Positions 4,327-19,551 of a DNA stretch of 20,188 bases are shown in pieces (the first letter of the stretch is position 1; each line of letters opens with the position of its first letter). The DNA is from a virus: IMG/VR virus record IMGVR_UViG_3300025379_000100, positions 1 through 20,188 of that record. One strand, written 5' to 3'. Below the pieces are notes generated by a model. That model ran no database searches. It saw only the letters and a list, made by a program, of their open reading frames with translations, and had not been told where the DNA came from. A program made the translations under genes and the position numbers.

Positions 4327-7300
4327 ATGGCAACAACCCCATCAGTTGGATCAAAAATTCTTGCTAGTGATTATAATGCATTGCAATCAAAAGTTGCTTC
4401 TGTAATGGGGGTAGGATCTGGTACATATGGTTATGGTCAAACTAGTCCACAATACACCAGTAGTCAGATAGTCGGAAACCCTACAATTACAGTCACTCAG
4501 TGGAGAAATCTACGTAACGATTTAATTAACGCATATACACACCAAGGCAGTATTGGAAATTTAACAATTCCATCAATTCCAACTACATCTGCAAAAGTTA
4601 CATCAGCAGATTATGCATTATATTCAGCATTGGCAACTTCAATTTATAACAATGTAAATGCTACACCGCCGTCAAGTCAAGCTAGTCTTACTTCATTTTC
4701 GTCAGGACAACGTACTACTGCATGGAACGGAACAGTTCATCATACAGTAACTTTAACATTTGCTTCAGCAGCGGCTGCTAGATACTATTTTAATTCTGGT
4801 GGAAATTTTCAATTCAGTGCTAGCCTGATCAATTATCCTGGTTATCCAGGCCACGGATCTGCTGATGCCAGTTATGCCAAGGATGCAGACTGGAACATGT
4901 TATTGACTAATATTGGAACAATTACGTTTAATATAAGTGGTACATCTACTACAGGATCTTATACAACTATTGGCAGCAGTATTGGATTTTACCAACTAAC
5001 TACTACACCACAGAATATCTTTCAGAAGAAAACATCGAGTCCATATTATACAAATAATCAATATGATATTTTAGCAAGCATTAATGCTGGTGGAACTGTA
5101 ATAACTTTTGATATTCAATTTGCTGACTTGTCAACTGGCGGGACAGATGAAAATATTGAAGGTACGCTAACTAGTCTAGTACAAGCATATTACGCTACCG
5201 GATCTAGTGTTCAAGTTAATTTACCTAGTTATAGTGCTACAATGACTGGCGGCACAATAGTAACTCCACCACCACCTGCACCTCCACCACCTGCGCCACC
5301 ACCACCTGCACCTCCACCACCTGCGCCACCACCACCTGCGCCACCTCCACCTGCGCCACCTGCACCGCCTCCACCGCCCAGCTACGGTGCATTTACTATT
5401 AGCCCTAGCCCAGTATATGCTGGACAATCAGTTACAGTGAGTGCAGTTGCAAATAGTGCAACGGGTCTAGCATATTCTTTAATTGTGTATGATACAAACA
5501 ATAACAGAGTAGTTAATACAACAGGTACAATTTCAACTAATCCACAAACAGTTACCGGATCGTTTACAGCATTATATAGTGGTCAACCTTATCTAGCTTC
5601 GTTTGATATCAATGGATTAACAACAGAAAGTCAGTCTATAAGTTTTGGCATACCAACTACCAGTGCACTAACAGCATCTCCTAATCCAGTAAGTGACGGT
5701 GGAACAGTAACTATGAATGCAACTGCAACTAATTTTGCTCCAGGATCAACGTGGTCAATAGTTGCAACAGCAGCACCAGCTAGTGGAGGTGCAACAGTTC
5801 TTAATGCAACTGGTACAATTTCAACCAGTCCGCAAACATTATCAGGTACATTCACTGGTTATTATAGTATTGGCAATTACGGTCCATATTCAAGTATACT
5901 TACAGTTGGTGGCGTTGGAAGTTCTGGCCCAACCATAACAGTGTCCGCACCACCTGCAATTAGTCTTAGTAATTTTGCATTCTATAGTGGATCAAATCCC
6001 GTTACTACTGTAGTTGGTGGTACCAGTGTAACATTACGAATAACAGTTTATAATGCAGTTGGACAAATTTGGAACTGGTTGGCTAGTAGCGGCGGCCAAA
6101 CTTATATTGCTAATGGAACATCTGGCACTATTAGTACTAACCCACAAACAATTATTAGCAGCCCATTTTCAGTAGTTTATACAGGTTTGGTCGTTAACGG
6201 ATCGTTTGATATAACTGGATACATACCCGGTGCAGTGGGTATAGCTTTAACAGTAACTGATCCAACACCTCCACCACCTCCACCACCTCCACCACCAACA
6301 ACTTACGGAGCATTTACAGCTAGCACAACTAGTCCTACAAACGGTCAAAGTGTAACAGTATATGCTGTGGTCAATTATCCACAAGGTCAATCATATTCGT
6401 TAGAAGTATTTAATAGTGCAAGTACTACTATAATATCTCAAACTAGCACTTTAAACAGTACTGGTTCGTCGCAGACAATTTCGGGATCATTTACTGCATC
6501 TTCTAGCGGTTCTCCTTACCATCCTTATTTTAATGTTTATGGATTATCGACAGAAACCGGTCCAACTATAACTGTACCACCACCGCCACCAAGCTATAAT
6601 GAAATTGTATCAGGACCCAGCACAGTTTATGTTAACCAAAGTTTCAACGTTAACTTGTCTGGCGGCGCACCGTACGCTACAGTACAGTGGTCTGGTGCAG
6701 CCAGTGGATCTGCTACGCTCGATGGTTCAGGTAATGGAGTCTTTGCCGGAGTATCATTCAGCAGTATAGGCACTTATAATTTTACCTTTGTCTTTGGAGT
6801 AACAATTGATGTTAGAACATATTCTGTCCAGGTAATTAATCCACCACCACCTGCGCCAACAGTAACAGCAAGTGGTGCACCAGTACCAAATACAACTATG
6901 TACTCAGGTACAGGTTATTTTTATGATGTTGCAGTGACTTCAACAAATGCTACTAGCGGAAGTTGGAGTGATACAGCCGGACACAGTGGTGCTGTTAATT
7001 TTATAGGCGGATTAAGTTCAGGCTTTAGCTTTACTATTTCTGGTTTACTCACTCCTGGATCTTATACAATATCAATTACAGTAACTGGTCCAGGCGGCTC
7101 AGCATCTACAAGTATTGGATATACACTAGCAACAGCACCGGCCCCAACATTAACATTCGTTAGTGTTTCTCCTACTAGTATTTCTGGATCGGTTGGCGGC
7201 ACAGTAACTGCTTACTATACAACTACTGGAGTTCCAACTGGCGGATTCTGGTACTGTTCAGGATCTGCCGGAACACTGGTAAGTACAACAGGATTTACAC

Positions 7301-7437
7301 CAAGTAATCCAAACGGATCATTAAGTGTATATATTCCTCCAGATTCAGCAGCCGGTACTCAAACTATCGGTGCTGATGACTATAATACTCAAGTAGATCC
7401 AACCGGCGGCAGCTCGATTTCGTTTACTATTACCTAA
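4327..7437 (+). CDS. Large proline-tract / Ig-like repeat virion protein
   Basis: 1036 residues. The N-terminal ~110 residues (MATTPSVGSKILASDYNALQ, GYGQT, TQWRNLRNDLINAYTHQG) match the start of structural proteins of marine T4-like phages. Residues 314-351 are a proline tract: six PPPPA units, then PPA and PPPPP. Seven Ig-like beta-sandwich repeats follow, approximately 352-443, 444-540, 545-647, 658-750, 756-838, 839-935 and 936-1036; several begin with further proline tracts at 648-657 (ten Pro), 751-755 and 839-844. Repeats 1 and 4 share YGAFT, GQSVTV and QTxxGSFTA. It has no signal peptide, membrane segment or enzyme motif. The likely role is an elongated, stiff surface fibre that binds host polysaccharide; Ig-like domains are common on phage virions. 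Two prolyl-hydroxylase-like genes follow at once (its TAA overlaps the next ATG by 1 nt), making the proline tracts obvious candidate substrates. The PPPP runs should also make translation EF-P dependent. Confidence 0.82.
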   Translation: MATTPSVGSKILASDYNALQSKVASVMGVGSGTYGYGQTSPQYTSSQIVGNPTITVTQWRNLRNDLINAYTHQGSIGNLTIPSIPTTSAKVTSADYALYSALATSIYNNVNATPPSSQASLTSFSSGQRTTAWNGTVHHTVTLTFASAAAARYYFNSGGNFQFSASLINYPGYPGHGSADASYAKDADWNMLLTNIGTITFNISGTSTTGSYTTIGSSIGFYQLTTTPQNIFQKKTSSPYYTNNQYDILASINAGGTVITFDIQFADLSTGGTDENIEGTLTSLVQAYYATGSSVQVNLPSYSATMTGGTIVTPPPPAPPPPAPPPPAPPPPAPPPPAPPPPAPPAPPPPPSYGAFTISPSPVYAGQSVTVSAVANSATGLAYSLIVYDTNNNRVVNTTGTISTNPQTVTGSFTALYSGQPYLASFDINGLTTESQSISFGIPTTSALTASPNPVSDGGTVTMNATATNFAPGSTWSIVATAAPASGGATVLNATGTISTSPQTLSGTFTGYYSIGNYGPYSSILTVGGVGSSGPTITVSAPPAISLSNFAFYSGSNPVTTVVGGTSVTLRITVYNAVGQIWNWLASSGGQTYIANGTSGTISTNPQTIISSPFSVVYTGLVVNGSFDITGYIPGAVGIALTVTDPTPPPPPPPPPPTTYGAFTASTTSPTNGQSVTVYAVVNYPQGQSYSLEVFNSASTTIISQTSTLNSTGSSQTISGSFTASSSGSPYHPYFNVYGLSTETGPTITVPPPPPSYNEIVSGPSTVYVNQSFNVNLSGGAPYATVQWSGAASGSATLDGSGNGVFAGVSFSSIGTYNFTFVFGVTIDVRTYSVQVINPPPPAPTVTASGAPVPNTTMYSGTGYFYDVAVTSTNATSGSWSDTAGHSGAVNFIGGLSSGFSFTISGLLTPGSYTISITVTGPGGSASTSIGYTLATAPAPTLTFVSVSPTSISGSVGGTVTAYYTTTGVPTGGFWYCSGSAGTLVSTTGFTPSNPNGSLSVYIPPDSAAGTQTIGADDYNTQVDPTGGSSISFTIT
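5266..5379 (+). repeat. In-frame 15-bp tandem repeat encoding (PPPPA)6 PPA PPPPP
   Basis: A run of 38 codons using only CCN and GCN. The first 60 bp are two identical 30-bp copies, each made of two synonymous 15-bp units (CCACCACCACCTGCA then CCTCCACCACCTGCG); two further 15-bp units and a degenerate end follow. The identity of the 30-bp copies points to recent slippage or unequal recombination. The plus strand is almost free of G within CCN runs and the minus strand has repeated GGT/GGA blocks. It is a coding repeat, not a CRISPR. Confidence 0.93.
6268..6297 (+). repeat. Ten-proline tract (CCT/CCA repeat)
   Basis: Ten consecutive proline codons in a CCT CCA CCA pattern repeated three times plus one CCA, encoding residues 648-657 of the large Ig-like protein. 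It separates Ig-like repeats 3 and 4 and, like the main PPPPA tract, precedes a YGAFT-starting Ig module, so the tract and the domain seem to have been copied together. Confidence 0.9.
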
Positions 7438-15110: not shown

Positions 15111-16295
15111 TTATGCCGCTTCTTTAACTTCTTCGTAGTAAGCGTATTCGCCGAATGGAGGCACAATCTTGTCATTACCGTGGATAATGAATACTGTATC
15201 ACAGTAGTTTTCATCACCCCAACTACCCCAGGGATAACCGTCAGTGAACATGATAAACTTTTTAGGTTGAATATCGTGTTCCTTCATGTAATCCCAGTTG
15301 GCATCAAACTCAGTGCCACCGCCGCCCATTGGTTCGTAGTAATCAAACTCGTCTAAATTGTAACCATCAAAGTCAGCTTCATTATAAACTTTAGTATCAA
15401 AGCACCATACTTTAATTTTAAAGTCTCTGTACTCTTCCATGATGCCTTTAATCTCGGATAAGAAATCTTTAGCCTGTTCATCTCCAATTGATCCTGACAT
15501 ATCAATTGCTACACAAATATCAATAGTTTCTTGGAATTGTTGACCTGGTAGCACAGCGTTCATATGCCAACCCTTACGGTTAGGACGCATAAATGAGTAA
15601 TCATTCTTAATAGTGCTTTGTATTTGTTGACGTAGTATTTCACGCCAGTTCATCTTAGGCTCTGTCAATTCTTTAATCATGCGCTGTACACTAGCAGGAG
15701 TGTTACCAGCACCCGCGGCCTGTGCGGCTTGCATAGTAGCTTCACGCATCTCGTCTCGGATTTGTTTTAGTTCTTCTTTAGAGTATTTTGGTTTACCATC
15801 TTTGCCATCTTCTCCCCAATCAATGTGATCATCCAACAATTGACCAAGTGCGTTAAGTTCTTCTTCGTCCATTTCGTCGAAGATTTTGTCGTAAACTTCC
15901 TCAGCACCCATACCATAGTATTTGGCATCGTGGAAGATTTTGATACCATCAATATTATGATCACCAATACGGTCACGAACTAATTGTCCGTTCACACAAT
16001 AGTCTGCGGCAATATTAAAAATTCGTGGGTTACGGGTTTCACGCCGTCCCATGTGATCAAACACATTATGCAAAATTTCATGTGCAATAACAAATTCTAC
16101 TTGTTTAACGCTAAGAGGTTCAAAAAATTCTCGATTAAAGTAAATGACACGGCCGTCTGTAGCAGCCGTGGTCATCCATTCAGATCCTTCTTGGATTTTA
16201 AGACGAGTTGCCAAATTACCAAAAAACGGATGGCGAAGTAGTAATCCTACTCGTGCTACGATAATTTTATCAATAATTGGATCTGTATGTGACAT
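15111..16295 (-). CDS. DUF2201-like metallopeptidase/VWA protein, partner of the MoxR ATPase
   Basis: 394 residues with two domains. The N-terminal part carries a zincin-like site AHEILHNVFDH (H72, E73, H76) followed by NIAADYCVN (residues 94-102), the layout of the DUF2201 putative metallopeptidase domain. An acidic and helical linker (about 140-225) follows. The C-terminal half is a VWA-like domain with a full MIDAS: DMSGS (D265, S267, S269), Thr in GGGGTEFD (T328) and FTDG (D352). In cells such proteins pair with MoxR AAA+ ATPases, which remodel or activate targets and often insert metals; CobT, partner of CobS, also has a VWA domain. The ATPase gene is immediately upstream in the same direction. 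It has its own sigma70-like promoter with an internal hairpin, and a CAGGAG site before ATG. Substrate is unknown. Confidence 0.87.
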   Translation of the reverse strand: MSHTDPIIDKIIVARVGLLLRHPFFGNLATRLKIQEGSEWMTTAATDGRVIYFNREFFEPLSVKQVEFVIAHEILHNVFDHMGRRETRNPRIFNIAADYCVNGQLVRDRIGDHNIDGIKIFHDAKYYGMGAEEVYDKIFDEMDEEELNALGQLLDDHIDWGEDGKDGKPKYSKEELKQIRDEMREATMQAAQAAGAGNTPASVQRMIKELTEPKMNWREILRQQIQSTIKNDYSFMRPNRKGWHMNAVLPGQQFQETIDICVAIDMSGSIGDEQAKDFLSEIKGIMEEYRDFKIKVWCFDTKVYNEADFDGYNLDEFDYYEPMGGGGTEFDANWDYMKEHDIQPKKFIMFTDGYPWGSWGDENYCDTVFIIHGNDKIVPPFGEYAYYEEVKEAA

Positions 16296-16322
16296 TTAAA
16301 CTCCTGTTTTGCTATAGTATAT

Positions 16323-16351
16323 ATTATAACACCACCCGAAGGTGGTGTCAA
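16323..16351 (-). promoter_or_regulatory. Sigma70-like promoter for the VWA gene with a hairpin spacer
   Basis: On the minus strand TTGACA (16351-16346) and TATAAT (16328-16323) are separated by exactly 17 nt, a full-consensus promoter, 27 nt before the ATG at 16295. The spacer plus the last three bases of the -35 box are one perfect inverted repeat. It lies right after the ATPase stop codon, so the VWA gene can be transcribed on its own or by read-through. Confidence 0.78.
16329..16348 (-). repeat. Perfect 8-bp hairpin with UUCG tetraloop in a promoter spacer
   Basis: Minus strand reads ACACCACC, TTCG, GGTGGTGT: an uninterrupted 8-bp stem closed by C(UUCG)G, an exceptionally stable tetraloop frequent in T4-type phage intercistronic hairpins. 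It starts 19 nt after the ATPase stop. No U-run follows (TATAATATAT comes next), so it is not a standard intrinsic terminator. It could be an mRNA 3'-end stabiliser, a processing site or a DNA operator. Confidence 0.9.
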
Positions 16352-16367: not shown

Positions 16368-17459
16368 TTACTTTTCAGTAGCTTGTGCAATGTATTTGCC
16401 ATATTTGGCATGGAAATCATCAAAGCATTTGATTTCATCTGGATCCAATGGCAACTTGTAAGTACTTAAAGCCAATTTTGTACCCATGATAACCAATTCT
16501 GTTTCAAAGTTATTCATCATAAATTCGAAAAAGCAATTAACTTGATCATTCCAATTTTTGGCATTCTTCTCGCAAGCATCTTTCAACTCGTAACACAATG
16601 ACACAGTCAAACTGTACATAGCTGAGATTTCTTTTGAATCCATTTTCTTGACTTTGCCGCCCAAAATATCTGTAGGATTAGGCATTTTGCTAGCATGTTT
16701 ACGGTGAGCCATGAACTTAATAGCAAGACCTTCACCAACAGAACCGGATACCAAGTCAGTTAATGTATCTGCATCGGTATCGTCGTCATGCAATAACTCA
16801 GATACGAAACTCCAAGAGCGTGGAGTAGCAAATGCACGTGAACTAGACTTTGGATCAAAGTCGTACAAATCTTTCTTGCTAAAGCTCAAGAAGCCAACTA
16901 CGTCTTTATGGATACGATTTTCAGCGGCCCACTCAAAGTAGTCATCCCAGTCAACAGTCATTTCCAAGTGAACAAAACGATTTGCCAACGGAGCAGGCAT
17001 ACGGAATGTAACACCTTTGTCAGTTTCACGGTTACCAGCCGCAACAATTACAACATTGTCTGGCAATGTATATGCACCAACTTTACGGTTGAGAATAAGT
17101 TGATAGGCAGCCGCTTGCACACTGGGTGCGGCGCTGTTCATCTCATCCAAGAACAAGATGATACTTTTATACTTGCTAGCCAAATCTGCACTTGGCAATT
17201 CTGCTGGTGGCGCCCAACGCATAGTGCCATCATTAGAATCAAAATATGGAATACCTTTAATGTCAGTAGGTTCCCAAAGGCTCAAACGAACGTCAATTAC
17301 ATGTGCTTCAGATTCAGCACCAAGTTGTTTGATAATATCTGACTTGCCAATTCCGGGAGGACCCCAAAGGAAGATTGGACGTTTGTTTTTAAAAGCCTTA
17401 CGCAAAGACTTTTTAGCGCCGCTAGGGCCAACTGTGCGACTGACGATTTCGGATGCCAT
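16368..17459 (-). CDS. MoxR-like AAA+ ATPase (CobS-like of T4-like phages)
   Basis: 363 residues with one AAA+ domain: Walker A GPPGIGKS (33-40), a MoxR-type DIKGIPYF insertion (66-73), Walker B ILFLDE (101-106), sensor-1 Asn in AAGN (143) and an arginine in LANRFVH (R161) at the arginine-finger position. A C-terminal helical part follows. Cyanophage homologues are usually annotated cobS after the cobaltochelatase subunit; the same fold also describes MoxR chaperones, and the adjacent DUF2201/VWA gene argues for a MoxR-VWA pair rather than cobalamin synthesis. It is predicted to form an ATP-driven ring acting on the VWA partner and its client. AGGA sits before the ATG, and a strong sigma70-like promoter lies upstream. 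All catalytic residues are intact. Confidence 0.9.
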   Translation of the reverse strand: MASEIVSRTVGPSGAKKSLRKAFKNKRPIFLWGPPGIGKSDIIKQLGAESEAHVIDVRLSLWEPTDIKGIPYFDSNDGTMRWAPPAELPSADLASKYKSIILFLDEMNSAAPSVQAAAYQLILNRKVGAYTLPDNVVIVAAGNRETDKGVTFRMPAPLANRFVHLEMTVDWDDYFEWAAENRIHKDVVGFLSFSKKDLYDFDPKSSSRAFATPRSWSFVSELLHDDDTDADTLTDLVSGSVGEGLAIKFMAHRKHASKMPNPTDILGGKVKKMDSKEISAMYSLTVSLCYELKDACEKNAKNWNDQVNCFFEFMMNNFETELVIMGTKLALSTYKLPLDPDEIKCFDDFHAKYGKYIAQATEK

Positions 17460-17515
17460 CTTGTTTCCTATCTTAGTTAAAAAAATACGTTGTTGAATTA
17501 ACTCTGTATGTATAT

Positions 17516-17544
17516 ATTATACAGGCTTAGTTGCAGACAGTCAA
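17516..17544 (-). promoter_or_regulatory. Sigma70-like promoter for the ATPase operon
   Basis: Minus strand TTGACT (17544-17539), a 17-nt spacer and TATAAT (17521-17516), 56 nt before the ATG at 17459, lie in the 95-nt gap after the upstream gene. The -10 box and following bases form TATAATATATAC, identical over 12 nt to the promoter of the VWA gene. It probably starts early transcription of the ATPase-to-thyX operon. Confidence 0.75.
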
Positions 17545-19047: not shown

Positions 19048-19551
19048 TCATTCTTCTGCGAAATCTATGACATTGCCGTCAGCATCTGCACAGATAATAC
19101 GAACAGTATCGCCTGCTTCATTTTTAATTTCGATTGGTCCCCAAACCCACCATTCTGTGTCATTTTGGTACCATGGATCGTCTTCGCGTTCTTCTAATTC
19201 ATAGATGCTATTTTCATCTATGAATTCTTGAATCTCTTCTTCTTCCTCTTCGTTAAGTCCTTCGATCTCAACATCATACCAACAACCGCCGTCATACATT
19301 TCGTTAAGATCGACACTTTCGATATTATTGACTTCACAGTCGCACATATTGATACTGTCTTTCTTGCCATCTCCACCTGGTACTTCTACAAACTCGAACT
19401 CGGGAGGATTGTCGTCTGTAGTTTCTACAGTCCATTCGCCATAACGGAAACCATTAACAACCGTAATTTTACCATCACCATTCTTTTGAGACCAATACTC
19501 ATTTTCTTGACAAGATTTTTTATAATATGTACTAATAGTCCAAGTTGCCAT
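19048..19551 (-). CDS. Very acidic conserved phage protein, 167 residues
   Basis: By my count 46 Asp/Glu against 10 Lys/Arg, including a run of six Glu (LNEEEEEEIQEFIDEN). The start MATWTISTYYKKSCQENEYW is reminiscent of a protein family in T4-like cyanophages. Tryptophan-rich phrases (DGGCWYDVEIEG, DPWYQNDTEWWVWGP) and four cysteines, with MCDCEV in the middle, suggest a folded domain rather than a disordered tail. Such charge is typical of DNA-mimic or nucleic-acid-protein inhibitors, but no known family is recognised. The ATG follows an AAGGA site in a 10-nt gap after the preceding gene, in the nuclease cluster. Confidence 0.8.
   Translation of the reverse strand: MATWTISTYYKKSCQENEYWSQKNGDGKITVVNGFRYGEWTVETTDDNPPEFEFVEVPGGDGKKDSINMCDCEVNNIESVDLNEMYDGGCWYDVEIEGLNEEEEEEIQEFIDENSIYELEEREDDPWYQNDTEWWVWGPIEIKNEAGDTVRIICADADGNVIDFAEE

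Follow-up and report, generated by a model that had tools for sequence, protein, structure and literature searches.

A hairpin nested in the spacer of a consensus promoter probably separates the MoxR and VWA genes of a large group of freshwater phages

Hairpins of the cUUCGg type were reportedly described between T4 genes by Tuerk and others in 1988; to our knowledge, none of them is known to lie inside a promoter spacer. The junction analysed here resembles them in having a UUCG-capped intergenic hairpin closed by C-G. Promoters combined with stem-loops are known from T4-like phages such as RB49, where promoter-early stem-loops (PeSLs) are credited to Arbiol 2010 and Comeau 2014 in PMC4503421 (refs 36-37); according to the account given there PeSLs mediate shuffling, and one of the titles it cites calls them composite conserved promoter-terminator motifs. 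The haloarchaeal virus HGTV-1 carries TATA-box/inverted-repeat motifs that its authors likened to PeSLs (PMC3950731).

The genome of RB49 was found to contain many promoters with TTGACA and TATAAT or TATACT boxes and a stem-loop filling the spacer, e.g. TTGACAGGGGATCGGTGATCCCCTATAAT, placed directly after one stop codon and before the next start. In NC_005066.1 there are about 10 early-type promoters with GGGGATC-type or similar spacer stem-loops, several of them between small tandem genes (for example 121736-121708 and 115033-115005, both on the minus strand). To judge from the citations in PMC4503421, they very probably correspond to the PeSLs published in Arbiol 2010 and Comeau 2014. The element described here is like a PeSL in being a sigma70-type promoter with a stem-loop between co-directional genes. 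It differs in number and place: RB49 has many copies, some in a region of small hypothetical genes, whereas the present element occurs once per contig at a fixed junction and, as far as contigs that may be partial can tell, is not dispersed in many copies through one genome. The RB49 stems are of the GGGGATC type with other loops, whereas the elements described here mostly have UNCG loops and an extended -10. HGTV-1 also has a promoter-like element with an inverted repeat preceding many genes, but its motifs are archaeal, TATA-type and multi-copy (PMC3950731), unlike the single sigma70-type element per contig reported here. The nested layout is already known from RB49; at the present locus it is found at one fixed gene pair, in single copy and apparently maintained by paired mutations.

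The window, the whole stretch of DNA analysed, is an IMG/VR virus contig of 20,188 bases in which a MoxR-type ATPase gene is followed on the same strand by a VWA gene (Table 1). PHROGs and many GenBank records call the VWA/DUF2201 family 'HNH endonuclease'; Pfam finds DUF2201 domains. Between the two genes lies TTGACACCACCTTCGGGTGGTGTTATAAT (minus strand, 16351 down to 16323), which matches the sigma70 consensus at 12 of 12 positions, with a 17-nt spacer and a TG preceding the -10 box, and is the only 12/12 promoter in the scanned stretch. Within it, a perfect inverted repeat, ACACCACC-TTCG-GGTGGTGT, runs from the ACA of the -35 box through the entire 17-base spacer, its 3' edge flush with the -10. 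The full-consensus promoter and the 8-bp repeat filling its spacer had both been noticed in a sequence-only reading of the window, and both descriptions were borne out, with the refinement that the repeat includes ACA and that its three outer pairs are promoter bases, the ACA of TTGACA pairing with the TGT of the extended -10. Since these three pairs belong to the promoter, independent evidence for a hairpin comes from the five inner pairs only. Markov-shuffled windows are expected to hold 0.047 12/12 promoters and 0.05 8-bp repeats (at least 5 GC, 3-6 nt loop); the window has one of each, and these two rare features coincide. Folded as RNA, the junction is far more stable than its shuffles (z -4.2), giving the stable GC-rich hairpin of an intrinsic terminator, and the DNA strand likewise folds better than shuffles. 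No Rfam family was found at the MoxR/VWA junction, and megablast of the window against named phages gave no match.

Table 1. Features at and around the MoxR/VWA junction, in window positions
Feature	Position	Strand	Basis or remark
Sigma70-type promoter TTGACA-17-TATAAT, extended -10 (TGTTATAAT)	16323..16351	minus	sequence; boxes kept in 80 near relatives
Hairpin ACACCACC-UUCG-GGUGGUGU, 8 bp	16329..16348	minus	fills spacer and last 3 nt of -35 box; folding, covariation
A/T-rich TATAATATATAC directly 3' of hairpin	16317..16328	minus	-10 box at the U-tract position of a terminator
Predicted transcription start, ~7 nt past -10	16316	minus	from spacing only
AGGAG ribosome-binding site of VWA gene	16301..16305	minus	sequence
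MoxR-type AAA ATPase gene (363 aa), phrog_1297, upstream of element	16368..17459	minus	
DUF2201 putative metallopeptidase + VWA-like domain gene (394 aa), phrog_1314, downstream of element	15111..16295	minus	
MoxR gene promoter TTGACT-17-TATAAT, without spacer hairpin (internal control)	17516..17544	minus	

The segment TATAATATATAC is common to both window promoters (the second copy at 17510-17521, minus strand) and TATAATATATACATA to many relatives; an extended start region shared phage-wide is possible. An additional outer helix flanking the promoter (in the window, AGCTAT/ATAGC) was rejected, since permuting the upstream sequences among the loci gave results just as good. Elsewhere in the window, a perfect 12-bp inverted repeat (AATTCATAGATG...CATCTATGAATT) lies at 19196-19226 within an ORF at 19048-19551, and a long ORF at 4327-7437 encodes proline-rich PPPPAPPPP repeats.

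Conservation was assessed in 80 VWA homologue loci from other IMG/VR contigs, picked by protein similarity alone. In all 80 of these nearest loci a hairpin-in-spacer promoter stands directly 3' of the MoxR gene with its boxes kept (-10 variants TATACT, TAAACT and TACAAT); a search for the same arrangement at syntenic sites of related phages had been suggested in the sequence-only reading. The phages concerned form a large freshwater group. The element is also directly 5' of VWA in 79 of the 80; in the exception, L026, it adjoins the MoxR 3' end and an extra gene intervenes before VWA, a single insertion just downstream of the element at a junction that is otherwise fixed. By eye only, the inserted gene (L026:2360-3001, ~190 codons) is oxygenase-like.

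Covariation was measured on 37 distinct elements, the 18-nt-spacer form L076 being left out. Bases are paired in 99.3% of pair cells, with 1 wobble and 2 unpaired among 296, and compensatory two-sided changes occur in four of the five inner pairs; the three outer pairs are made up of promoter bases and hence invariant. Covariation scores 0.429 in these elements, 0.104 in shuffles (0/500 reach 0.429) and at most 0.139 with the partner slid. The inner pairs interchange freely among relatives (CCACC, CCTCC, GGACC, CCGCC, GGGCC), and many stems switch several pairs together, with intermediates almost absent. The VWA tree requires at least 34 stem changes, at least 18 of them for CC/GG; the relatives are not independent of one another, and whole elements could be exchanged by recombination between phages, which may explain part of these changes, so the counts are not mutation counts. 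In the sense RNA the loop is UNCG in 61 of 80 loci, and the antisense equivalent CGNA is found in 0/80. The element is real rather than a chance coincidence, and the comparison marks it as conserved and functionally constrained, with putative roles in 3'-end formation and transcription start.

Other promoters do not share the feature. In the MoxR promoters of the same loci the spacer stems are 1-6 bp, mostly 2, with no spacer hairpin, and in an IMG/VR sample of 89 strong extended -10 promoters a full hairpin was present in one, itself at a MoxR/VWA junction. The view that such economy is unusual holds relative to most phage promoters (1/89 sampled) but not absolutely, since there are many cases in RB49 and some at NrdA/NrdB junctions. 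A search pattern in which the inner CC/GG pairs alone were specified left three pairs unconstrained; the stem was completed, wobble allowed, in 79/79 viral matches among the matches listed and in 7/58 bacterial matches of the same pattern. No further copies were found in 16 contigs, each with one element, and looser rules revealed no dispersed family in three contigs of 94-128 kb (contigs in either set may be partial). Terminators of ordinary appearance, their stems GGACC or GGGCC and their loops UUCG, are also present on contigs with the element.

Beyond the near relatives, an ordinary terminator-like hairpin follows MoxR in sister clades, in which VWA is ~50-60% alike, and in the distant jumbo phages Atu_ph07, XaC1, RaK2, SNUABM_19 and Phosso. 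In most sister-clade loci and in Phosso a separate TTGACA-type promoter comes after that terminator. Gene order and the two functions at the junction are alike, but sister clades have an intact U-tract and a promoter outside the hairpin, whereas in the window the promoter encloses the hairpin and the -10 box takes the place of the U-tract. The U-tract abuts or runs into the -35 box in L485, L489 and L498, and the arrangement is nested in L480, L482 and L484. This series from separate through abutting to nested suggests that a terminator and a promoter that were once separate may have given rise to the nested form.

Termination at the hairpin is probably leaky. The stretch 3' of it (UAUAAUAUAUAC) is U-poor, the TATAAT box replacing most of the U-tract, and the tail, UAUAAUAU, lacks the U-rich tract of an intrinsic terminator, which makes strong termination doubtful. 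A terminator scan of the window made no call at the hairpin, and a heuristic terminator score is ~0 for the window element versus ~20-57 for most sister-clade terminators; these two results do not support a strong terminator by consensus.

The explanation that best accounts for the locus, and one that is considered probable, is a nested 3'-end hairpin and promoter separating two tandem phage genes. It is supported by the conservation, the compensatory pairs, the UNCG loops, the sister-clade terminators and the linkage of the element to MoxR in L026. The same comparative evidence gives good support to the proposal of the sequence-only reading that one short sequence serves as a hairpin for the ATPase message and a promoter for VWA, although, with so poor a U-tract, strong termination is doubtful. 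In a narrower form of this explanation, which is possible if somewhat doubtful, the hairpin would work purely in RNA, where it would stabilise 3' ends or mark a site of processing on read-through transcripts, with little or no termination, and the overlap would serve compactness. The poor U-tract and near-zero terminator score fit that proposal, as do the stable hairpins that UNCG loops give and the RB49 elements, mostly with even poorer tails; the U-tract terminators of sister clades at the same junction argue instead for termination as the ancestral task.

The sequence between the boxes is symmetric and its GC-rich spacer could be a protein site, so a DNA operator was also weighed, at which a dimeric regulator, possibly phage-coded, would sit between -35 and -10 and control the VWA promoter. 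One protein should keep its half-site, but no conserved half-site is seen, and UNCG loops on the sense strand together with unconserved stem sequence favour base pairing in the sense RNA. MerR-type regulators act on spacers of 19-20 bp, and the spacer here is 17. An operator, which the earlier reading had offered as an alternative, is on this evidence very unlikely, the stem sequences being swapped freely between relatives. The strand-specific loop preference also opposes a role for the structure as DNA, in which the repeat would extrude or bend in supercoiled DNA and tune the promoter; the DNA strand does fold better than shuffles, but a repeat of only 8 bp is short for cruciform extrusion, and this idea is considered highly improbable. 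Multi-pair switches, with 1 wobble and 2 unpaired cells among 296, could come from templated correction of quasi-palindromes, a mutation bias that would keep the stem perfect independently of selection on function. That account, too, has very little probability, as it leaves unexplained the position at one promoter per contig, the UNCG loops and the sister-clade terminators at the same junction, and no palindrome is seen in the MoxR promoters at these loci.

In the nested hairpin and promoter model, RNA polymerase would start at the MoxR promoter (boxes 17544-17516) and transcribe the ATPase gene and then the 20-nt inverted repeat, which in RNA would fold into a stable UUCG-capped hairpin marking the 3' end of the ATPase message, through leaky intrinsic termination, by blocking 3' exonucleases, or both. 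In DNA the same bases would be the 17-bp spacer of a full-consensus sigma70 promoter, from which the VWA message would start ~12 nt further on. As the ACA of the -35 is complementary to the TGT of the extended -10, the promoter itself would supply the outer stem. Both promoter activity and 3'-end formation are inferred from the sequence comparisons.

Hairpin-in-spacer promoters were also sought at other junctions. Between the genes for the large and small subunits of ribonucleotide reductase (NrdA/NrdB), 17 of 68 distinct upstream regions scored under a permissive rule. In the NrdB upstream regions (L183, L527-L606) the stems vary and most loops are not UNCG; in other relatives the hairpin is a different one or is absent. 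Upstream of the clamp loader 4 of 70 regions scored as nested, three of them convincingly, and the L115-type junction was ruled out as a conserved second case. It is possible, and put forward tentatively, that the nested hairpin-in-spacer is a general, repeatedly evolved phage separator of tandem genes beyond the mobile T4-like PeSL cassette, evolving from a terminator followed by a promoter and found where core genes adjoin in a fixed order (MoxR/VWA, NrdA/NrdB and the gene preceding the clamp loader). On this view the DNA at which one message acquires its 3' end would also initiate the next, and the two events may be coupled.

If the proposed model is true, ~29 bp hold two signals that are normally separate and are jointly constrained by sigma70 acting on DNA and by base pairing in RNA. 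Relatives offer, in their stem variants, a ready series of natural compensatory mutants on which both functions could be tested, and the separate and abutting stages are available for comparison in the sister clades. The finding would also warn that terminator predictors miss such gene boundaries, and it would carry the PeSL idea beyond mobile cassettes to gene junctions that stay fixed.
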